Below, piece by piece: positions 4,055 to 34,353 of a stretch of 34,633 nucleotides of DNA. Origin of the DNA: a virus. Numbering within the stretch: the stretch's first letter is position 1; every line of letters starts with the position of its first letter. The stretch is taken from IMG/VR virus record IMGVR_UViG_3300010430_000276, positions 1-34,633 of that record. One strand, 5' to 3'. The position numbers were made by a program, and so were the translations under genes. Below the pieces are notes generated by a model that saw only the letters and a program-made list of their open reading frames with translations, had not been told where the DNA came from and did not search any database.

Positions 4055-5260
4055 TTACGATTCAATGATAGGTGCTTTATTTTTCTGTTCCCTTATTGAT
4101 TCATCTGTCCATTGACCATTCTTAACTCTTTTTGTTTTTATTTTGTCTGGAAATAGCTTATTGTAATTTTCACGGTATCTAGATAAGTTTTGCTTTTCCA
4201 ATTCAATATTATCGAATCTTCTTATAATATCATCAACAGGTCCAAGCTCAACCCCAAGCCATTTTCTTTCCTTCATTTCCGCAACAATATATGACGTACC
4301 GGAGCCGCCAAATGGGTCAAAAATTAAATCTCCTGGCTCTGAAGACATTTCAATAATTCTATCAAGCAATTTTATAGATAGTTCATTGGCGTCTTTACGA
4401 CCTTTATATTTAGAGTGACGAACAGGAGGTATATCATACCAAACATCCGTCATATTAATTCCTTTAGGATTCATTTTGTCCTTATAACCACCGTAGTCTT
4501 TAATGTCTCCATAACACTTCGGGCAGGTTTCCATTGCTAATCTATCTGGATGAAACGTATTAGGTCTTTCTCCTTTAATATAGTACAGTAAAGAATAGTG
4601 AGAAGGATATAATTTCCCTTGTATTGGTAAGGAGAATTTTATATCAGTAGAAATCCAATGTCTAAATGACAAGCGTTGGTTTAGGTATTCAGAAAAATAG
4701 GTATTCCATTTTGGTATATTCCAGAGAAATAAACTTCCCCCTTTTTTTAAGGTTCTTATACATTCCTCTAACCAAGTCTCCGTCCAATTAATATATTCTA
4801 AATTTGAAAGATTATCGTCCATACCTGAAGGATAAAATTTATTTAGATTGAAAGGAGGATCTGCAAAAATCAGGTCAAAGGTTTCATCCTCTACTTTAGA
4901 TAAAAGAGATAGGCAATCACCTCGGAATAATTTACCGTTTTTAGTTTCAAATTTTTCCTTGTGGTTTTGCTCAACTGTCTTAGATCCGTTAAGATTTTTT
5001 AATATGTATGGTGCGTGGTGGCTAATCAGTTTTTTAAGTTCTGAATTATAAATGCCCATTTTGAGCATTATTTCCTCTTTTGGGATATTTAGATTTTTAA
5101 AAATTGAATCTAGCGTATTTTTATCCGGTAGAATATTATTAGTATTGTAGTGGTCCAGCTCTTTAGCCGAAACTTTGATTAAACGAGCAAGTTTTATAAC
5201 CTCTTGACGATTAGCAGCATCTATTCCCAATGCACTGTATAGTGGATTCTTCAGATTCAT
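4055..5260 (-). CDS. Type II DNA methyltransferase, beta class, of the prophage R-M system
   Basis: This 401-aa enzyme protects the restriction target by transferring methyl from S-adenosylmethionine to an amino group of adenine (N6) or cytosine (N4). Motif IV DPPF is at 134-137 and the SAM-binding motif I DPFGGSGTS at 315-323. This order, catalytic motif before SAM motif, defines the beta class. A lone CPKC pair (246-249) sits in the target-recognition region. Residues about 15-60 look like a helix-turn-helix (RQEVIKLARLIKVSAKEL), as in methylases that also autoregulate. It diverges from the C and endonuclease genes, and its probable -7 box lies at 5277-5284. Whether it is N4 or N6 specific cannot be told from DPPF alone. 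Confidence 0.9.
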   Translation of the reverse strand: MNLKNPLYSALGIDAANRQEVIKLARLIKVSAKELDHYNTNNILPDKNTLDSIFKNLNIPKEEIMLKMGIYNSELKKLISHHAPYILKNLNGSKTVEQNHKEKFETKNGKLFRGDCLSLLSKVEDETFDLIFADPPFNLNKFYPSGMDDNLSNLEYINWTETWLEECIRTLKKGGSLFLWNIPKWNTYFSEYLNQRLSFRHWISTDIKFSLPIQGKLYPSHYSLLYYIKGERPNTFHPDRLAMETCPKCYGDIKDYGGYKDKMNPKGINMTDVWYDIPPVRHSKYKGRKDANELSIKLLDRIIEMSSEPGDLIFDPFGGSGTSYIVAEMKERKWLGVELGPVDDIIRRFDNIELEKQNLSRYRENYNKLFPDKIKTKRVKNGQWTDESIREQKNKAPIIES

Positions 5261-5276
5261 TTGTCTTATTTTGTGC

Positions 5277-5355
5277 CAAATATACTAAAATCTATAGTGA
5301 CTATAGTCTGTAGTTTAAAAATAATTTTTTGATGACTTTTGTTAGTACTAAAGTC
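5277..5355. promoter_or_regulatory. Divergent R-M promoter region with C-box-like operators
   Basis: On the minus strand 5284-5277 reads TATATTTG, an exact TAnnTTTG -7 box 16 bases before the methylase ATG. The perfect palindrome GACTATAGTC (5299-5308) lies where its -33 element should be. A second inverted repeat, GACTTT (5334-5339) and AAAGTC (5350-5355), sits just before the C gene ATG at 5362. GACT/AGTC half-sites are characteristic of controller-protein C-boxes. I infer that C protein at the first site affects the methylase promoter and that the second site autoregulates C and the endonuclease. Confidence 0.6.
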
Positions 5356-5361
5356 TGAATT

Positions 5362-5589
5362 ATGATTGAAACTATATTTGGCTTAGTTCTTAAAGAAATT
5401 AGGACAGAAAGTAAAATTTCTCAGGAAAAACTTGCGGAATACTGTAACCTCGATAGGACTTATATATCCTTATTGGAGAGGGGGTTGAGGCAGCCAACAA
5501 TTACTACAATTTTTAAATTATCAAAAGCTCTAGGTATTACTCCGAGCGAATTAGTAAAAAAAATAGAAATACGATATGAAAATCAATAA
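5362..5589 (+). CDS. Controller (C) protein of the R-M system, XRE-type HTH
   Basis: This 75-aa DNA-binding protein has one XRE helix-turn-helix: SQEKLAEYCNLDRTYISLLE (about 20-39), followed by the family motif RGLRQPTITTIFKLSKALGI. Size and composition are those of C proteins, which delay endonuclease synthesis until the host DNA is methylated. The ATG is only 6 bases past an AAAGTC half-site, leaving no room for a ribosome binding site between operator and start. Some C genes are leaderless, which would fit. The last 14 bases overlap the endonuclease gene. It could also be read as the phage repressor, but its neighbours argue for a C protein. Confidence 0.85.
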   Translation: MIETIFGLVLKEIRTESKISQEKLAEYCNLDRTYISLLERGLRQPTITTIFKLSKALGITPSELVKKIEIRYENQ

Positions 5590-6166
5590 TGAGAACCTGT
5601 TTATTAGTAATGGCGAATTTTCGCAATCAGATGAGTTTAATCAAATTTTAGAAGAATTAAGAATCGCAATCGCATCCGTTACTTGGGGTAGTGAAGAAAG
5701 TTTTATTGTAAATCCAACTAAAAAAGGAAACGGTGTTGTGCCCATAAAATCAAATTTTATTGAAACTCTTGAATCTTTCGGGTGGGTAGCAGAAAAGAGA
5801 ATGAGCTTTGCCGACGGTATGAATCCTGGTCCTGTTGACGTTATTAAGGAAACTAGTTTTGGTGATTTCGCAGTAGAATGGGAAACCGGTAATATTTCAT
5901 CATCGCACCGAGCACTTAATAAAATAGCAGTTGGAATTATACAAAATGCGATAATTGGGGGCATATTAATTTTACCGATAAAAAAGCTAGCACAATACCT
6001 TACAGACAGGATAGGGAATTATGAAGAGCTTGCTCCTTATTTTCCTTTGTATGAAAACGTATCCGTTGATTCTGGGATTATTGGTGTAATTTCAGTCGAT
6101 TATGATGATGTTTCTAAAGATTCTTCTTTAATACCTAAGGGCAAGGATGGATATGCTAAGAAGTAA
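5576..6166 (+). CDS. Type II restriction endonuclease, BamHI/BglII-like
   Basis: This 196-aa protein is the length of this family. The probable PD-(D/E)xK-variant active site is D88 in GPVDVIK, with E101 and E103 in AVEWETGNISSSHRALNKI. The spacing D-x12-E-x-E matches the D, E-x-E catalytic set of BamHI-type enzymes, and the run after it is typical of the BglII/BstYI group. By analogy the target could be a GATC-centred palindrome, but that is only a guess. The gene overlaps the C gene by 14 bases and diverges from the methylase, the layout of several type II systems. No damage is seen. Confidence 0.8.
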   Translation: MKINNENLFISNGEFSQSDEFNQILEELRIAIASVTWGSEESFIVNPTKKGNGVVPIKSNFIETLESFGWVAEKRMSFADGMNPGPVDVIKETSFGDFAVEWETGNISSSHRALNKIAVGIIQNAIIGGILILPIKKLAQYLTDRIGNYEELAPYFPLYENVSVDSGIIGVISVDYDDVSKDSSLIPKGKDGYAKK

Positions 6167-10849: not shown

Positions 10850-10975
10850 ATGTCGAATTTTAATTACAAACCGCAGTACGGCATAGTCGTTATATGCGAA
10901 GATGAAGAAGATCAAAAAAAGATTTTCGAAGAATTACAAAAACTAGGTTATAAACTAAAAATCGTAGTGGTATGA
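10850..10975 (+). CDS. 41-aa peptide coupled to the ABC-GNAT gene
   Basis: An ATG at 10850 starts 41 codons. The product begins MSNFNYKPQYGIVVICEDEE and continues with QKKIFEELQKLGYKLKIVVV, a beta-alpha-beta pattern. Its stop overlaps the next ATG as ATGA (10972-10975), strong evidence that it is translated and coupled. It is the first gene of the putative modification operon. Its role is unknown; it could be a small subunit or a targeting factor for the ABC-GNAT enzyme. Confidence 0.7.
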   Translation: MSNFNYKPQYGIVVICEDEEDQKKIFEELQKLGYKLKIVVV

Positions 10976-12087
10976 TTATAGATATTAAGCACCGATGCAG
11001 CGACTACGATAGTTACCGTGCCGAAAGGGTAAAGTCGCTATTCAATGCCGATAATGGCTGTGATTGGGAGCATATGGCCGATTTACCAATAGAAGGGAAT
11101 GACTGGAAAATTGGATTAATTGTAGGTCCTTCTGGTAGTGGAAAAACAAGTATCGGCTCAAAATTATGGGGTGAAGATGCTGTTTACGACCCATATTCTG
11201 GTTGGGATAAAGATAAACCAATCATTGATTGTATTGCTCCAGGAGGAGATTTTGATCAAGTTACAGGTAGCCTTTCTGCAGTTGGACTTGGTGATGTTCC
11301 AGCATGGCTACGACCATTTAACGTATTAAGTAATGGAGAACAGTTTCGTGCCGGATTAGCAAAATTAATATGTGAAGCACCGGACAAAGTTGTAGTAGAT
11401 GAATTCACCTCGGTTATTGATCGTCAGATTGCTAAAATAGGTGCATCTGCCTTTGGTAAATCGTGGAGAAAAGGCCCCGGTGGACAGATCATTTTACTGT
11501 CGTGTCATTATGATATTATCGAATGGCTGCAACCTGACTGGGTGTATGACACTTCTAAAGCCCGTTTCGCTCGGGACAGTCTTAGGCGACCTCCAATCAA
11601 GCTGGAAATTTATAAAGTCAACAGCAAACCATGGAGATATTTTAAAGAGCATTACTATTTAGACTTACCGATGCCTCCTGCTGCGGAGTACTATGTTGGT
11701 GTTGTGGATAATGAATTGGTTGCACACGTAGCGGTCACTCCCTTATTTACTGCAAATGCATATCGTGCGACCAGGCTGGTAGTAATGCCCGAATGGCAGG
11801 GAGCTGGTGTTGGAACAAAGTTTTTAAATGCGGTGTGTCAAATGATGCTGGATGGTAAAGGTCGAAAGGGACATAAATATGGTACTTTCTTTCATACTTC
11901 TCACCCACAATTATGTGGATACTTACGTCACAGTAAGCTATGGGAACAGCGTTCAGCAAAGCTTCATGGAGCAAATAAGTTAAGAAGTATGCAAAGTATT
12001 AAAAAGGCTGGAGGAACTATCGGTACTGGATATGGAGGTCATTTCCGGGCAATTCAAGGATTCAAATATATAGGAGATGGAACTTAA
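10972..12087 (+). CDS. ABC ATPase fused to a GNAT (Mom-like) acyltransferase
   Basis: This 371-aa protein has two domains. Residues about 45-205 are an ABC ATPase: Walker A GPSGSGKTS (52-60), a signature-like LSNGEQFRAGL (119-129), Walker B KVVVDEFTS (139-147) and switch His in LLSCHYD (179). No membrane segment is present, so it is not a transporter. Residues about 211-330 are a GNAT fold with the CoA-loop motif EWQGAGVGTKFL (274-285) and a WRYFKEHYYLD stretch (221-231). That stretch recalls the His-Tyr motif of Mom, the Mu enzyme that modifies adenine. It is followed within one overlap by a formyltransferase-like gene. I infer a DNA-base modifying enzyme; protein or peptide acylation is an alternative. 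Confidence 0.8.
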   Translation: MIIDIKHRCSDYDSYRAERVKSLFNADNGCDWEHMADLPIEGNDWKIGLIVGPSGSGKTSIGSKLWGEDAVYDPYSGWDKDKPIIDCIAPGGDFDQVTGSLSAVGLGDVPAWLRPFNVLSNGEQFRAGLAKLICEAPDKVVVDEFTSVIDRQIAKIGASAFGKSWRKGPGGQIILLSCHYDIIEWLQPDWVYDTSKARFARDSLRRPPIKLEIYKVNSKPWRYFKEHYYLDLPMPPAAEYYVGVVDNELVAHVAVTPLFTANAYRATRLVVMPEWQGAGVGTKFLNAVCQMMLDGKGRKGHKYGTFFHTSHPQLCGYLRHSKLWEQRSAKLHGANKLRSMQSIKKAGGTIGTGYGGHFRAIQGFKYIGDGT

Positions 12088-12664
12088 AATATATATAAGT
12101 GGTTCCGGCTATTTCGGTGCAGAAGTACTCAAGTTATGTGTAAGCAAAGGATTTGAAATAGTTGGTATAGATACCACACAAAAAGATAAACGGCTTAGGG
12201 CTGAAGCAGAAAATAATAATGTACCAATCTATAAAAGTGTAGACCAGGCACCAGATTTTGATCTTGGTATATGCGCACATAGCTTCAAGATAATTAGTGA
12301 TCACGATATTCAAAAAGCCCGCATCGGTTGGATCGGTTACCACCCTTCGTTACTCCCAAGACACCGAGGTAAAAGTTCAATTGAATGGACTATTCGTATG
12401 CGAGATTTGATTACCGGAGGAACTATTTATTGGTTGAATTCCGGTATTGATGATGGTGAAATTGCATATCAGGATTTTGTATTTGTTGATCCGGAGCTAT
12501 GGAATATGCCGGTACGTGAAGCCACATTCAGGCTATGGACTAAAGAGCTTTGTCCGCTTGGCTTAAAACTATTTGAAAAGGCTTTAAAGGATATCCCCCG
12601 AGGTATAATTGAAAAGGAGGTTCAGGATCTTCGATTTGCTACTTATGAACCCGCGATTAAGTAA
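12077..12664 (+). CDS. Formyltransferase-like enzyme
   Basis: This 195-aa protein has the fold signature of methionyl-tRNA and glycinamide formyltransferases: an N-terminal Rossmann-type start (IYISGSGYFGAEVLKLC), the loop GYHPSLLPRHRG (87-98) and GIDDGEI (123-129). The catalytic His (H89) and Asp (D125 or D126) remain, but the usual Asn two residues before His is Gly. It is shorter than Fmt and lacks its C-terminal tRNA-binding domain. It overlaps the ABC-GNAT gene by 11 bases. It probably hands a one-carbon or carbamoyl-type group to an intermediate made by the GNAT enzyme; the true substrate is unknown. Confidence 0.8.
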   Translation: MELKIYISGSGYFGAEVLKLCVSKGFEIVGIDTTQKDKRLRAEAENNNVPIYKSVDQAPDFDLGICAHSFKIISDHDIQKARIGWIGYHPSLLPRHRGKSSIEWTIRMRDLITGGTIYWLNSGIDDGEIAYQDFVFVDPELWNMPVREATFRLWTKELCPLGLKLFEKALKDIPRGIIEKEVQDLRFATYEPAIK

Positions 12665-12781: not shown

Positions 12782-13105
12782 ATGAAAATAAAGAAATTAA
12801 CAAGGCCGCTACTTATTAGTTACTTACAGGAATATAAAATGATTGAGGATGTTGACCATACCTTGATTGAGGAGTTGTTCTTCAATATCAGATTAATGTC
12901 GATGGCGAAGGATGATATAAACGAAAGAGGTGTCCTGGTAGATGTTTCCGCTAATAACAATGGCGTTATGCAGAAGAATCAATCCATAAGTACATATGAG
13001 TCGGCGTTATCGAATATCATGAAAATATCAAAACTTTTAGGATTATCTCCAAAAGATCGGCTGGAATTGGGGCTGGAGAAACCTGTTGAAAACGATGGGT
13101 TTTAA
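12782..13105 (+). CDS. terS: Terminase small subunit, P27-like
   Basis: I choose ATG 12782, giving 107 residues. The C-terminal half (STYESALSNIMKISKLLGLSPKDRLELGL) has the pattern of the P27-type small terminase family, which recognises the packaging site and regulates the large subunit. The gene ends 2 bases before the large subunit ATG. A longer frame from TTG 12665 would add 39 residues of unconvincing sequence. The N-terminus is short for the family, so DNA recognition may lie in residues 1-50. Confidence 0.85.
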   Translation: MKIKKLTRPLLISYLQEYKMIEDVDHTLIEELFFNIRLMSMAKDDINERGVLVDVSANNNGVMQKNQSISTYESALSNIMKISKLLGLSPKDRLELGLEKPVENDGF

Positions 13106-13107
13106 CT

Positions 13108-14808
13108 ATGGAGAGAACGGTACTATTTACTGAAAAAGAGAAGTACCGGGAGCATTTACACAATATTTCAATTGAATATGAAAACAAAGTTTTATCCGGA
13201 GAAGTAATTGCTTCAGAATGGATAAAGTTAGCTGTAATACGAGAACAGGGAGATCGGGAGCGATTCGAATTTAGAAAAGATAAAGTAGACCTACTATTTG
13301 ATTTCTGCTTTTATGTTTACCTGAATGTAAAATCTAAAGTCACGCAGTTCGTTCCTTCTCCTTACCAAGCGTGGATGTTCCGAAGTATTTATGGATTGTA
13401 TTATCCCGGTACCGAAAAACGGGTGCGAAGGTTTGCCGTAATGACCACAAGCCGAAAATCAGGTAAAACTGCCGCAGCCGCTATACTATCCTTATTCTCT
13501 ATGATGAAAGAGGAAAGAAGTGCAGAAGTTTATTTTGCAGCCACAACTCAATTCCAGGCATCGCAGGCACTTCGCTATTTGAAAGATATAGTAATTGATT
13601 CCCCGGCATTAAACAAGCGTGTTGATCGTTTACAGTATAGCTTACGCTTCACCGGGAACGGAACATGTATTGCAAAACCACTTGCAAATTGTGCAGAACG
13701 GCTTGACGGTTTATCTCCTTCATTTGCAATCATTGACGAGAGTGCGGCCCTACCAGACAAAACACTTTTCAATATTCTGAAAACCGGAACACTTGCCAGG
13801 AATAATCCACTTATTATTCAAATTTCAACTGCTGGTCATAATAAAGACTATCCTTTTTACAGTGATTTGGAATTAGGGAAGCAGGTTTTGAATGGAGATG
13901 TTCAGGACGATAGTACATTTTATGCGATTTACCAATTAGATAATGAAGGCGAAATAGAAAATCCTGAAATGTGGGTAAAGTCTAATCCCAATATAGATGT
14001 TGTTATTGATTTGCAGGATTTGAAAAATGATTGGAATAAAGCCAAACTCATTTATTCCGATAGAAACGAATTTATTGTAAAGAATCTCAATGTTTATACC
14101 GATTCGACTGATACATGGATACCCGATGAAGATTATAAAAAATGCTTTAAGCCAGTTGATGTTGAAAGTTTGAAGGGTGCTGAGGCTTTTGTTGGAATCG
14201 ACCTTTCCGCTACCACCGATATTGCAAGTATGGTAATTGTCGTTAAGGATGAAGACGGCAGATTTAAGATCATTCCCGAATTTCACCTTCCTAATGGCTC
14301 TGGAATGAAAAGGGTAAGAGCTGGTGATATTGACTTATCCGAATGGGTGAAGAAAGGATATCTGTTTGGTCATTCTGGAAAAACTATTGATTATAGCTTT
14401 ATAATTGAACGGTTAGAATATTGGAACGAGTTTTTTGATATTCAAATGATCGGCTTTGATCCTTGGAATTCCGCAATGTTTATTCAGCAATTGGAGGATA
14501 CGTTTTTGACGGAACAATTAATCAAAATCCCGCAGAATACTAAATCCTTCAATACTCCAATGAAATATATTGAAGCATTGATACTAAGCGAAAATATTAG
14601 TCTTTCAACCAATCCGGTGTTAAGGTGGATGTTTCGAAATGTTGTGCTTTACATTGACGGAAATGGAAATATTAAACCTGTAAAAAACAAAAGTGCTGAC
14701 TCAATTGACGGTGTGGTTTCATTAATCATGGCTATTGGTTTATGCATCGGAAACGATTTTACAGATATGACTGACTTAATTAAACATATGAACAAACTAA
14801 ATGAGTAA
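13108..14808 (+). CDS. terL: Terminase large subunit
   Basis: This 566-aa motor protein pumps DNA into proheads and cuts it. The ATPase domain has Walker A TTSRKSGKTAAAA (about 113-125) and Walker B FAIIDES (about 206-212). The C-terminal RNase H-like nuclease has GIDLSATTDIASM (first Asp about 364), GFDPWNS (about 449) and a final Asp near DSIDGVVSLIMAIG (about 531). Length and motifs are standard for the HK97/P27-associated family. It starts 3 bases after the small subunit and leads directly to the portal gene. Confidence 0.96.
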   Translation: MERTVLFTEKEKYREHLHNISIEYENKVLSGEVIASEWIKLAVIREQGDRERFEFRKDKVDLLFDFCFYVYLNVKSKVTQFVPSPYQAWMFRSIYGLYYPGTEKRVRRFAVMTTSRKSGKTAAAAILSLFSMMKEERSAEVYFAATTQFQASQALRYLKDIVIDSPALNKRVDRLQYSLRFTGNGTCIAKPLANCAERLDGLSPSFAIIDESAALPDKTLFNILKTGTLARNNPLIIQISTAGHNKDYPFYSDLELGKQVLNGDVQDDSTFYAIYQLDNEGEIENPEMWVKSNPNIDVVIDLQDLKNDWNKAKLIYSDRNEFIVKNLNVYTDSTDTWIPDEDYKKCFKPVDVESLKGAEAFVGIDLSATTDIASMVIVVKDEDGRFKIIPEFHLPNGSGMKRVRAGDIDLSEWVKKGYLFGHSGKTIDYSFIIERLEYWNEFFDIQMIGFDPWNSAMFIQQLEDTFLTEQLIKIPQNTKSFNTPMKYIEALILSENISLSTNPVLRWMFRNVVLYIDGNGNIKPVKNKSADSIDGVVSLIMAIGLCIGNDFTDMTDLIKHMNKLNE

Positions 14809-29644: not shown

Positions 29645-30394
29645 TTATGAAAAAATATCCTCGAATTGAGGAACTTTTTGGTTATTAATTTTGTAATTGG
29701 AATCATAAAAGCCTTTGAATCTATATTTAATTGAAGTAGAAGATATGATTTTGAAAATTTCAAAAATATATTCTTCTGGTAAACTTTTGGGTAATTTAAT
29801 TCTGTAAAATAAAATAGATTCGTTTACAGGTAAGACATATTTATCACAAGGATCGATCGTATGCACTGATTTGTCATATTTAAAATTACTATCAATATTA
29901 GGTGATATTTGTTTTGCTGCTATATTAAAAATTGTTTTTATAATTTCTTCGTAAGTATTATTTTCTTTATTATTAAAAATTATTTTGGTATAATCTATAA
30001 ATGCAGGACCTAAACCAGTATTGATTAATTTGAGCTCAAATGTATATGTAACTCTACTGTAATAAGCGTCTAGAATAATTAATGGTTTTACGGATAGTTT
30101 GTTGTGATTGTGTATTTTATCTAGGGAGAGCTCGTTATGACTTTGCATTTTCCTGTTCGATCGAATACCAAAAAACAAAGCAAAGGATGCTATTAATACG
30201 GTTAAAATAGGTACCACTAAATCGGTAACTTTTTCCATCATGCTTTTTACTTCAATAATTTGAGGAATTACAACATGGGTGGTATCTGTAACTGATACAG
30301 TTTTAATCTGGGTAATAGTGTCGTAAACCTGTATTGTGTCAAATACTTGTATTGTATCGTATACTAATTGGATATTGTCTTGGCTAATGTTCAT
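29645..30394 (-). CDS. Membrane protein of a local paralogous family, member 1 (249 aa)
   Basis: The N-terminus contains tandem DTI repeats (YDTIQVFDTIQVYDTI, about 12-27). A membrane segment lies at about 58-76, then a basic stretch, HNKLSVKP (97-104), INTGLGPA (124-131) and a beta-rich C-terminal domain with FKGFYDSNYKINNQ near the end. The same architecture occurs in the genes at 30384 and 32859. The C-terminal domain is probably cytoplasmic and the DTI region outside. Its first 11 bases overlap the end of the 208-aa paralog. No known function. Confidence 0.7.
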   Translation of the reverse strand: MNISQDNIQLVYDTIQVFDTIQVYDTITQIKTVSVTDTTHVVIPQIIEVKSMMEKVTDLVVPILTVLIASFALFFGIRSNRKMQSHNELSLDKIHNHNKLSVKPLIILDAYYSRVTYTFELKLINTGLGPAFIDYTKIIFNNKENNTYEEIIKTIFNIAAKQISPNIDSNFKYDKSVHTIDPCDKYVLPVNESILFYRIKLPKSLPEEYIFEIFKIISSTSIKYRFKGFYDSNYKINNQKVPQFEDIFS

Positions 30395-31010
30395 TATTGG
30401 TTGAATGATTTTTAAGTGTATAATTTTTATTGTATATATCTTTATATTTTATCTCGTATTTAAAACCCTTTAGTTTATTTATGATGGAGTAAAAATTTGA
30501 GACATTTCCACCAACATAAAATGAATATAAAACGACTTCATCGTTTGGGCCAAAGGTTTTATTTGTAAATTCTTCAGAATAAGGTTTGTTTATTATCTTC
30601 TGTTCTAAATTTGAGAAGAGTTTTTTATGTATTGGACCAAAGTATTCTTCACTAATATCTCCTTTTGAAATTTTTGAAGAAACGATTGTAGCTGGACCCA
30701 ATCCTTTGTTTATAATAATGATTTTTATAAAAGAAGTTTGAGGCGAACGTAATATTTTAATATCAAGTTTTGGTTTTACAGATAGCATGTTATGGTTTCT
30801 TGTCCAATAAAGCGAAAGTATACTTACTATGACAGCAGATAAGGAAATTGCAATTGCAGCAATTGTCCAAGCGTTTTTTGAAAACTTCTCCCATCCTGTT
30901 GCTGGTGTCTGTTGAATGACTACAGCTTTTATAGTGTCGTAATATGGTATTGTATCGTAAATATGGGTTGTTAATGTATCATTAATAATCTGTAGGCTAT
31001 CTGCTGTCAT
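30384..31010 (-). CDS. Membrane protein of the same family, member 2 (208 aa)
   Basis: This paralog has two YDTI repeats (18-27), a membrane segment (about 48-68, AWTIAAIAISLSAVIVSILS), HNMLSVKP (73-80), NKGLGPA (101-107) and the C-terminal signature YKDIYNKNYTLKN. It is the first gene of a two-gene leftward operon with member 1, which it overlaps by 11 bases. The pair looks like a tandem duplication that diverged, so the products may form a hetero-oligomer. The 92-base gap to the divergent Abi-alpha-like gene should hold its promoter. Confidence 0.7.
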   Translation of the reverse strand: MTADSLQIINDTLTTHIYDTIPYYDTIKAVVIQQTPATGWEKFSKNAWTIAAIAISLSAVIVSILSLYWTRNHNMLSVKPKLDIKILRSPQTSFIKIIIINKGLGPATIVSSKISKGDISEEYFGPIHKKLFSNLEQKIINKPYSEEFTNKTFGPNDEVVLYSFYVGGNVSNFYSIINKLKGFKYEIKYKDIYNKNYTLKNHSTNNEH

Positions 31011-31102: not shown

Positions 31103-32017
31103 ATGACAACGAAAATAAATATTACTTCAACCGTTGCCGAAAAAGGAATTGACGCTGCAAAAGGTTTTCTGGATAAACTTATTGTTCCAGCCATTGAGGA
31201 AACCGGATTGCTGATAAAAGATAAAGTAGCCTCATGGCGTTTTAATAACCAAGTTAAAATATTAAATAAAGCAAAAGCCAAATGCGAAAAGAACGGAATA
31301 AAGCCTAAAGCCATAAATTTAAAACTATTGGTTCCATTTCTTGAAAATGCGTCCTTAGAGGAAGAAGAAGAGATGCAGGATAAGTGGGCAAATTTACTTT
31401 CAAATTTGGTAGATTCAGAACAGAACATTGAAAACCATGTATTTCCATATTTATTGAGTCAAATTTCTTTGAGTGAGTTTAATATACTTGAAAAAACATT
31501 AAAAGATAAAAGAATTCGGATTGCTAGGTTAGATAAAGAATTAGATTTAGAAGTAAATTTAAATGTGGATGAAAAGGAAAGGATAAGAAGAGAGATTAAT
31601 GAGATTAAAAACGAGGAAGTAGGAGAACAGCTATATGTTTTTAATGAAAAGCTTGTGGAACTAGAAATTAAGTTAAACCAACTTGAGCATGACGAAAAGG
31701 AAATTAAGAAACATTTGAAAGCTCCTGAATATATTATGGTTCATCGCCTTAAAGAATTTGAAATATCAAATTTAGTTAGGTTAGGGTTATCAAGAAGTTT
31801 ACCTATAGCATATCCAAGAGAGTCTTTGTATAAATCTGTAAATAGTGATGGCTTTCTTGAAATTGATGATATTGAGATAGAAATAGATGCAAAAGACGAA
31901 ATTTTGGTTTTATCCCAGTTAGGTGAAATGTTTATTACTGTATGTACAGAAAAGAAAAAGCAATATCCTAAACCAGAAGAAACAATTGAGCAGGAAGAAA
32001 GCTCAAAGCCTCATTAA
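31103..32017 (+). CDS. Abi-alpha-like (DUF4393) protein
   Basis: This 304-aa protein has the pattern of the DUF4393/Abi-alpha family: LVPFLENASLEEEEEMQDKWANLLSNLVD (about 73-101), with the characteristic Asn-Ala-Ser, acidic run and Trp-Ala-Asn-Leu-Leu. A charged coiled-coil region (about 130-215) and a C-terminal EISNLVRLGLSRSLPIAY block with a final beta segment follow. The family was proposed to act in abortive infection, but its mechanism is not known to me. It diverges from the paralogous membrane pair and precedes other membrane proteins. Confidence 0.7.
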   Translation: MTTKINITSTVAEKGIDAAKGFLDKLIVPAIEETGLLIKDKVASWRFNNQVKILNKAKAKCEKNGIKPKAINLKLLVPFLENASLEEEEEMQDKWANLLSNLVDSEQNIENHVFPYLLSQISLSEFNILEKTLKDKRIRIARLDKELDLEVNLNVDEKERIRREINEIKNEEVGEQLYVFNEKLVELEIKLNQLEHDEKEIKKHLKAPEYIMVHRLKEFEISNLVRLGLSRSLPIAYPRESLYKSVNSDGFLEIDDIEIEIDAKDEILVLSQLGEMFITVCTEKKKQYPKPEETIEQEESSKPH

Positions 32018-32111: not shown

Positions 32112-32771
32112 ATGGAAAATAAATCTATTTTAAACCAAACTAAAGAATTTATAAAGGATACTCCAATTTTGTCTGATGTTGGAGATACTCTTAAAGAAAG
32201 AATAAAGAGCCAATTTTGGTTTTTTTATCTTTCCTTATGGATTTTCGCTAAAATTGAATTTTTCTTGATATTCTTATTTTTTAAAAAATCAAATTTTACA
32301 TATGAAAGGTTTATAGTACTGTTAAAAAATCATTGGACGCAAGATGATTATGGTCTTATATTTAAATATATTGTTTTTGCAATATTGCTGTCAATGTCTT
32401 CTACATTTCTTATTTATACAGTTAAAAGTATTAACCTTTTAATTAAGGCATTATACAATCAAATAGAGACAAGGTTAAAATTTGTTATCTTAACTAATGA
32501 AACCAACTTAAGTGGAGCAGAGAAGAAAATTAACAAGCTGAGAGTTGAGAACCAAAAACTATTTTCAATTAGCTTAGAATACTTTAAAAGGATAAATGAT
32601 AGGGCAAATGAGGGGTATTCTAATTATGATATCTTTCCTATTAGTGCAGATTTAAGAGAATTTATAAATGATTATATTAAAGAGCATCCTGATGTAGTTA
32701 CAAAAGAAAATCGAAATTTCATAATGAATTTAGTTACAGAACCAGAACCAATCAAAAGATATGAAAATTAG
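32112..32771 (+). CDS. Unknown two-segment membrane protein (219 aa)
   Basis: Two hydrophobic stretches are clear, about 34-57 (FWFFYLSLWIFAKIEFFLIFLFF) and about 85-106 (YIVFAILLSMSSTFLIYTV). A long charged cytoplasmic C-terminal half with a coiled-coil-like start (SGAEKKINKLRVENQKLFS) follows. It lies 94 bases after the Abi-alpha-like gene on the same strand. No family recognised. The topology, a membrane hairpin with a helical tail, occurs in defence effectors that damage membranes, but that is only analogy. Confidence 0.65.
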   Translation: MENKSILNQTKEFIKDTPILSDVGDTLKERIKSQFWFFYLSLWIFAKIEFFLIFLFFKKSNFTYERFIVLLKNHWTQDDYGLIFKYIVFAILLSMSSTFLIYTVKSINLLIKALYNQIETRLKFVILTNETNLSGAEKKINKLRVENQKLFSISLEYFKRINDRANEGYSNYDIFPISADLREFINDYIKEHPDVVTKENRNFIMNLVTEPEPIKRYEN

Positions 32772-32858
32772 TTTCTGTTTTGGTGATTACCTTTTCGATG
32801 TTGTGGAATAAATATTTAAAGGAATTTTAATTAAAATTAATTATTATTTAGAACAAGT

Positions 32859-33386
32859 ATGAAAGAATTTTATTGTAAAGTCATTAATGACGCTGAATTA
32901 TCGATAGCAGCAATAGCATTAATAACCTCTGTTGTTTCTATCTTTATTGGTTTTGTTGGATTACGTATTCAAAGAAAACATAATAAAAAGAGTGTTTTAC
33001 CCATTGGTACAATAAATTTAGCTGATTATGAGAATTGTCTTAGGATTAAAATTTCGAACAATGGAGTTGGCCCGCTAATTATTAAATCTTGCAATACAAT
33101 TGGTAAAAACAGCGTTAAACCTTATCCAATTAACTGGATGCCAGGAGGTGTTGTATGGAGTACGTTTCGTGAGAATCTTGATAATCATACTATTTTAAGC
33201 GGTAGTTCCTTGACACTTCTAGAATTACAAGTAAATATAAAGAATAAAGGAGAAATAAAACAAAGGGATAAAATTCGTACAATTTTAAATGACCTAGAAT
33301 TAGAGGTGGGATATGAAGACATTTATGGGAAAGAATTCAAAGTAAAGAGGAAACTAGATTGGTTCGGAAGGAATCTAAATTATTAA
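32859..33386 (+). CDS. Membrane protein of the local paralogous family, member 3 (175 aa)
   Basis: The membrane segment is at about 15-36, close to the N-terminus because the DTI repeats are missing. Then come QRKHNKKSVLP (38-48), NNGVGPL (67-73) and YEDIYGKEFKVKRK near the C-terminus, matching members 1 and 2 in order and spacing. It is on the opposite strand and separated by two other genes, so the family spread here by more than tandem duplication. Function unknown. Confidence 0.7.
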   Translation: MKEFYCKVINDAELSIAAIALITSVVSIFIGFVGLRIQRKHNKKSVLPIGTINLADYENCLRIKISNNGVGPLIIKSCNTIGKNSVKPYPINWMPGGVVWSTFRENLDNHTILSGSSLTLLELQVNIKNKGEIKQRDKIRTILNDLELEVGYEDIYGKEFKVKRKLDWFGRNLNY

Positions 33387-33402: not shown

Positions 33403-34353
33403 ATGAGTGATCAAAAGACAAATCGAAAAAAAATTCCTTCAGACGTTGAAGCTGAGGTTATTTTTCAATCTAATAGACTCTGCTGTGTCGATCAGAAACG
33501 CGGAGATCATATACATCATATTGACGGGAATAATTCAAATAATGAATTTCGTAACCTGGCTCTATTATGTTTTGATTGTCATAATGAAGCTACTATAACA
33601 GGAAGTCTCCGAAAAAAACTAACTCCAAAAGCTATCATGAAATTTCGAGATCATCACTATAGCGTTATTTTAAACAATAGAAATCATGCTTTAAAAAAGC
33701 TAAATCATTCTATTAAGAATCTTACGTCTGAAGATTTAATAAGTGCCGCTACTACAGCTCTAATTCTTATGGAAATAACAAATGTAAAAGACGAATACTA
33801 TAATTGTGTTAAAATGGATCGCGATTATATAATTAATAAACTTGATAAACTTTCAAACCATAATAATGCAAGAATTTCCTATGAAGTATTTTCTTTTTTA
33901 ACTAAAGTTGCTTACGAAACACGAGGTGGCATGTCAGCAAAAATAGCGGGAACTATTTTTTCATTAGTAATGAAGTTTTTCCCACCAACTGATATTTTGA
34001 AAAATAAAAAACAATTGTGTGAAATAGGTAGTCAATGTATTTATATTGCTTCTACATTGGTGTATGACTCAACAATTCATATTAAAAATTTTCAAATTAC
34101 AAGCTGGGGATTATTAATTTTAAAATTTATCTATAAGCAGTCAAAAAAGATTAAAGTATCTGAATTAAATTCAAAAGTATTTAAGGCTTATGAAGAATTA
34201 GAAGATCATCTCATTAGACCAGAAAGAAATGATTTAACTGATGCGAAGCGTTTAATAAATATTTTTAAATTGGACTTGGAAAATCCTAGTTTAACTTACC
34301 CGGAAATTCCAGAAGACTTGTATAGACAAATCGAATTGCATAAGAAATCCTAA
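33403..34353 (+). CDS. HNH-domain protein with helical C-terminal region
   Basis: This 316-aa protein has an HNH nuclease motif at about 20-65: a CC pair (27-28), HIHHIDGNNSNNEFRNLALL with the catalytic His, then CFDCHNEA with the second Cys pair. About 240 residues of helical, Leu/Ile/Lys-rich sequence follow with no recognised domain. It is the last gene before attR and starts 16 bases after the member-3 membrane protein, so the two may be co-transcribed. As a nuclease at the prophage edge it may be a defence effector or a mobility gene. Confidence 0.8.
   Translation: MSDQKTNRKKIPSDVEAEVIFQSNRLCCVDQKRGDHIHHIDGNNSNNEFRNLALLCFDCHNEATITGSLRKKLTPKAIMKFRDHHYSVILNNRNHALKKLNHSIKNLTSEDLISAATTALILMEITNVKDEYYNCVKMDRDYIINKLDKLSNHNNARISYEVFSFLTKVAYETRGGMSAKIAGTIFSLVMKFFPPTDILKNKKQLCEIGSQCIYIASTLVYDSTIHIKNFQITSWGLLILKFIYKQSKKIKVSELNSKVFKAYEELEDHLIRPERNDLTDAKRLINIFKLDLENPSLTYPEIPEDLYRQIELHKKS

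Follow-up and report, generated by a model that had tools for sequence, protein, structure and literature searches.

A probable DNA base-modification cassette of phages combining an ABC ATPase-GNAT protein, a formyltransferase-fold enzyme and a ParB-tail peptide

According to the ORF calls, three overlapping genes of the plus strand immediately precede the terminase genes in a virus record of 34,633 nt, which as a whole is called the window below (Table 1). All three coupled frames that had been described in an earlier note made from the sequence are present; the first two share 4 bases and the last two 11. Their arrangement is far beyond chance: clearly more than 100 loci, belonging to several phyla, show it again.

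Table 1. Positions of the genes and sites considered in this work (window coordinates unless loci are named)
Feature	Position	Strand	Basis or remark
N4/N6 methyltransferase of BamHI-type R-M system	4055-5260		strand opposite to REase
Controller-like HTH protein of BamHI-type R-M system	5362-5589		
REase of BamHI-type R-M system	5576-6166		PF02923 E 4e-58; PADLOC REase_II 1e-57
41-aa peptide	10850..10975	+	tail homology to ParB-like proteins; putative adapter
ABC ATPase (aa 1-205) with GNAT acyltransferase domain (aa 210-368), 371 aa	10972..12087	+	phrog_11143, Pfam, AF2
ABC-GNAT linker (approximate)	11560..11610	+	in frame in the window; slippery A7-A11 run and -1 frame change in ~20 close relatives
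Formyltransferase (FMT), 195 aa	12077..12664	+	PF00551, PDB profile search, AF2
Terminase small subunit (P27 type), start inferred	12782..13105	+	PF05119 E 5e-12; directly downstream context
Terminase large subunit	13108..14808	+	phrog_9 E 5e-127; context
Split ABC-GNAT linkers	loci L012-L020, L080, L082-L086, L088-L092		-1 change at A7-A11 run

The product of the middle gene matches phrog_11143, a family of unknown function, with E 1.7e-144. Pfam registered an acetyltransferase domain in it (Acetyltransf_1, PF00583, E 1.7e-06), while ABC_tran remained just under the cut-off. The ABC motifs G52-K58 (Walker A), L119-G122 (LSNGE signature), D143-E144 (Walker B-Glu) and H179 (H-loop) are conserved in 63 relatives, among which the CoA motif of the GNAT part, RxVxxPxxQGxG, is invariant. 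In the AlphaFold (AF2) model, built on 63 relatives with a mean pLDDT of 89, residues 1-205 resemble ABC nucleotide-binding domains (2awn, Z 15.8, 3.0 A over 178), and residues 210-368 resemble GNAT acetyltransferases (1y9k, Z 15.7, 2.8 A over 134; RimI 5isv, Z 14.6). The fusion of an ABC ATPase with a GNAT domain, as claimed in the earlier note, is thus supported by Pfam, by conserved motifs and by a model showing both folds. One detail had to be amended: the motif given as W-x-x-F-x-x-x-HYY actually reads W-x-x-F-x-x-HYY (W221..Y229), with a gap of two residues between F and H.

The kinship of this GNAT domain with Mom of phage Mu (PF25680, PDB 8bv8), which had also been suggested, found no support. 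No match to PF25680 was obtained at E<=1, while Mu Mom itself scores 2.4e-75, and hhalign of ABC-GNAT against Mu Mom gave a probability of 0.3% over 10 columns. In the structure comparison ABC chains dominate the matches listed for the ABC-GNAT model and 8bv8 is absent among them; the nearest GNAT folds among these matches are ordinary small-molecule or protein acetyltransferases, RimI included. Kinship with Mom is not supported by sequence, having neither Pfam nor profile backing, and the two systems are alike in outline at most, as members of the GNAT superfamily and as DNA modification by a phage gene, whereas Mom has no counterpart of the ABC domain, adapter and FMT of the window cassette.

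The third gene encodes a PF00551 protein (E 1.5e-17 in Pfam) that does contain the expected formyltransferase loop, GYHPSLLPRHRG, in which Gly takes the place of Asn. In a fold comparison with its AF2 model (pLDDT 94.6) Fmt and the hydrolase domain of 10-formyl-tetrahydrofolate dehydrogenase (FDH) were tied (Z 27.2 and 26.9), while the PDB profile search placed the FDH domain closest (2e-47 vs 3e-29 for Fmt). His89, Ser91 and Asp125 are invariant in the alignment of relatives, and Gly87 of the window protein stands at the Asn position; across 128 FMT relatives this position is taken by Gly (96), Ile (23), Val (6) or Ala (3) and never by Asn. Amine-formylating enzymes need this Asn (PMC4388273). 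It belongs to the Asn-His-Asp set of the amine formylases PurN, Fmt and ArnA, which differ from FMT in this respect, and its loss makes unlikely the PurN-type role suggested by the PHROG name. FDH has no such residue either (Ile104), and its formyl acceptor is the phosphopantetheine thiol; in the case of HypX, transfer of formyl to CoA was proposed from structure (PMC4388273, PMC6802093). The FDH hydrolase domain is thus the closest solved family of FMT by sequence, and the two share both the His-Ser-Asp set and the absence of Asn at the Ile104 position. Unlike FDH and the N-terminal domain of HypX, however, FMT is a single short domain without carrier or dehydrogenase, and its genetic partner is a GNAT protein.

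The 41-aa peptide (phrog_28816, E 6.8e-17) had been regarded as a small subunit. It matches the ParB-like gene 1 of Gordonia phages and the ParB ORFs of loci L018 and L020, although Pfam found no ParB_N domain in the 41-aa gene and the homology is confined to the tail. Judged by this homology, the peptide is the detached C-terminal tail of the ParB-like protein that other phages encode just upstream of ABC-GNAT. It is homologous to the C-terminus of ParB-like proteins from phage DNA-modification operons, but their ParB domain is missing from the window operon, where only the tail is found. Among ParB proteins adjoining ABC-GNAT, 69 carry the tail and 3 do not; it is absent from the ParB proteins of two other cassettes considered below and from four of five non-adjacent ones. 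A scan of 50,697 phage records gave 19 tail-bearing records; they coincide exactly with the 19 records closest in ABC-GNAT, of which 18 also contain FMT. In the Sourvirus phages described below the tail accompanies ABC-GNAT only, and the exchange of cassettes there points to a tail that belongs with ABC-GNAT.

A homologous small ORF bears the annotation 'acr candidate' in locus L007 (5876-6004) and in other phages of P. gingivalis. Taken together with a weak PADLOC match between mad3 and the ABC part (E 1.4e-06), this label, which is also found in BK068090 and its relatives, could mean that the genes form an anti-restriction or defence module that targets restriction enzymes, CRISPR or incoming DNA and leaves the phage DNA unmarked. 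We consider such a module very improbable: the mad3 match covers only a 39-aa ABC motif, and the small ORF is homologous to the ParB tail, which occurs in phage records only beside ABC-GNAT. Both the homology and this restricted occurrence make anti-CRISPR an unlikely conserved role for the small ORF, and for the phages of P. gingivalis the sequence similarity renders an adapter the more likely function.

To follow the linkage of the genes, IMG/VR and GTDB species genomes were scanned with an ABC-GNAT protein or an alignment, and annotated phage and plasmid records were added, which gave about 190 loci; the counts below refer to the best-scoring loci, which are not phylogenetically independent. 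In the window clade (about 45-72% identical) FMT is the next gene after ABC-GNAT in 137 of the 143 loci having at least 600 bases downstream, and in 150 of 154 the gene directly before ABC-GNAT encodes the small peptide or else a ParB-like protein that ends with its sequence. In locus L119 ABC-GNAT and FMT are even fused into one ORF of 534 aa. The co-occurrence of the three genes in other phages, for which the earlier note had proposed a survey, is thus broad and conserved. In the distant ABC-GNAT group (mostly 28-43% identical) FMT accompanied none of 29 loci, and ParB with the tail was present in most. Record titles of the loci include Bacteroidota, Bacillota, Verrucomicrobiota, Planctomycetota, Pseudomonadota, Spirochaetota and Chloroflexota. 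In 394 other genomes of Bacteroidia the ABC-GNAT family was met once (E 1e-60), fitting a sporadic mobile gene.

Some loci carry additional genes. In phage Jace (L023, 2962-5182) the genes behind ABC-GNAT encode the aspartate decarboxylase PanD (E 2e-33) and a protein with a class III CoA-transferase domain, which could supply an acyl-CoA (possibly beta-alanyl-CoA) to build another kind of DNA adduct. Streptococcus phages have, after the ABC-GNAT gene pair, a gene for an ASCH-domain protein (L008, 5105-5473; L033, 4089-4466), which might be a reader or processor of a modified base.

Coupling of GNAT with an ABC ATPase for an uncharacterised acyl modification of DNA was predicted in 2013 (Iyer et al.), according to a 2021 paper that restates the prediction with QAX98348.1 and phage pT24 as examples (PMC7824862). 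Identity between the window protein and QAX98348.1 is 38%, with 77% of the query aligned (E 7e-44), and pT24 is matched as well. The core idea of an ABC-GNAT modifier is consequently not new, and the opinion that no characterised case exists holds for the chemistry, while ABC-GNAT as such had been predicted to modify DNA by acylation in 2013 and again in 2021. The window system has the same domain pair as this prediction and homologous proteins, but it belongs to a distinct clade bearing FMT and has, in the window itself, a free adapter peptide; PMC7824862 names no formyltransferase. The papers searched, a set that does not include Iyer 2013 and 2009, mention no formyltransferase in phage DNA hypermodification, and they contained neither the FMT partner nor the ParB-tail adapter nor the frameshift of the relatives described below.

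The strongest evidence that ABC-GNAT and FMT make up a DNA-modification cassette comes from the Gordonia phages of the genus Sourvirus, where the ParB-like gene 1 is conserved, as is the terminase, while the genes between them differ. ABC-GNAT with FMT occupies this slot in Mariokart, NHagos and BiggityBass. In CloverMinnie it holds a TET/JBP-like oxygenase, whose match is weak (E 6e-4, under the cut-off), an amino acid:DNA transferase (ADDT, PF18724) and a P-loop kinase, with the same layout in AnarQue; in Sour it holds a deazaguanine set made up of QueC, QueD, QueE, GTP cyclohydrolase and, by annotation, a tRNA-ribosyltransferase (TGT). Across the flanks of the slot the terminases are 66-81% and the N-parts of ParB 55-68% identical. 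The genes that CaiB has there were already described as nucleotide-modification enzymes (PMC9302106). When relatives of the terminase of the window were searched for a similar swap, just two loci came up, one nearly identical and one distant.

With the exchange against two known DNA-modification pathways, the association with ParB, the position beside the terminase and the conserved linkage, the DNA-modification operon proposed in the earlier note is retained as a cassette, while its tie to Mom is not. We regard it as quite likely that the three genes constitute a phage DNA base-modification cassette, an estimate that leaves aside the formyl-CoA step. One can also imagine that the target is a protein, for instance host RNA polymerase or a ribosomal or virion protein, because phage GNATs modifying host proteins are known (PMC7824862), Rac of phiKMV being such an enzyme, and the nearest GNAT folds among the matches listed include RimI and other ordinary acetyltransferases. 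Neither the slot exchange and the shared ParB-like partner nor the terminase adjacency and the published prediction for the ABC-GNAT family agree with this possibility, which we consequently hold to be improbable.

Assuming DNA modification, for which the case for DNA as the substrate is strong, the cassette very probably puts a chemical group on the phage's own DNA and so hides it from bacterial defences; the group itself may be formyl-derived. The ABC ATPase part, which probably works as a dimer driven by ATP, would engage the phage DNA, while the small adapter peptide would dock ABC-GNAT to a ParB-like or other DNA-bound partner, and before the DNA is packaged the GNAT part would acylate a base with acyl-CoA as donor. 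Use of acyl-CoA by GNAT can be assumed with moderate confidence from the retained CoA motif and the accessory genes of Jace. As for FMT, its closeness to FDH and the absence of Asn from 128 of 128 relatives favour formyl-CoA for the GNAT domain as its product: formyl would be moved from 10-formyl-tetrahydrofolate to CoA, as FDH does to phosphopantetheine and as was proposed for HypX, and the GNAT part would then use formyl-CoA. By this analogy formyl-CoA may well be the donor, although we stop short of calling it probable.

The order of the two reactions may also be the reverse, in which case GNAT would first add an aminoacyl-type group to the base and FMT would formylate the free amine of the adduct in a PurN-like manner. 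This competes with the formyl-CoA step only, and it draws on the amine-formylating activity of most enzymes with the FMT fold and on the free amine of beta-alanine, the product of the Jace aspartate decarboxylase; such an adduct should moreover outlast a bare formyl group. We nevertheless consider it rather unlikely, as the Asn required for amine formylation is absent from all 128 relatives (PMC4388273) and the window operon encodes no source of aminoacyl-CoA. In the formyl-CoA scheme the stability of the product deserves attention as well. An N-formyl group is easily lost from an exocyclic amine by hydrolysis; a base bearing formyl alone would therefore give little protection, and the final adduct may be larger.

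An additional level of control is suggested by the linker between the two domains. In 20 relatives from the window clade ABC and GNAT are encoded in two overlapping frames, GNAT always being in the -1 frame; 7 to 11 consecutive A stand at the start of the overlap, often in the context GTA AAA AAA AAG or AAC, and the stop of the 0 frame comes about 30 codons further on. Continuous ABC-GNAT genes have no more than 6 A in the linker in 154 of 155 cases, and the window copy is continuous and free of such a run. The split label changes about five times on the tree, and several distant phages of Bacillota (L008, L029, L033 and L034) have their split near this position too; isolated splits at other positions (L021, L077, L081, L093 and L106) may be errors and were left out of the count. 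Sequencing indels were rejected as the cause, because the 20 splits share one site, are always -1 and have at least 7 A, while continuous genes almost uniformly stay at 6 A or fewer. No stable RNA structure stood out 3' of the slippery site (z from -1.2 to 0.8). We read the splits as putative programmed frameshifting, ribosomal or, for longer runs, due to transcriptional slippage, which would yield ABC alone together with ABC-GNAT, perhaps providing dimers that bear one GNAT.

All these elements can be tentatively combined in a scheme where a base of phage DNA receives a formyl or formyl-derived group and becomes a new kind of DNA base, a dedicated FDH-like enzyme makes formyl-CoA for a DNA-acting GNAT, an exchangeable ParB-tail adapter guides this GNAT to the DNA, and -1 frameshifting, with ABC alone and ABC-GNAT as products, tunes the system in many phages; that every part holds at once is doubtful. 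If true, it would bring one-carbon metabolism based on folate into the known chemistry of DNA modification by phages and explain the recurrent block of phrog_28816, phrog_11143 and phrog_9240, presently labelled as unknown, 'acr candidate', 'tRNA-methyltransferase' or 'phosphoribosylglycinamide formyltransferase'. It would also suggest that ParB-like proteins are shared parts with a tail matched to the modification cassette. Since sequenced isolates grow on laboratory hosts, the base can be sought directly; among the phages carrying the cassette are Gordonia phage Mariokart and Pseudomonas phage Komp_PAO1_1, the latter on the laboratory strain P. aeruginosa PAO1.

Other regions of the window also contain genes with possible relation to defence. 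A BamHI-type restriction-modification system occupies 4055-6166, so that this phage carries both restriction-modification and probable DNA modification. The segment 2016-2969 strongly matches the PADLOC candidate defence family PDC-S42 (E 8.5e-119). The right end looks like an accessory or defence region, with a Pfam Abi_alpha match (E 8e-20) at 31103-32017, small proteins having membrane-like segments near it (30384-31010 and 32112-33386) and an HNH protein at 33403-34353.
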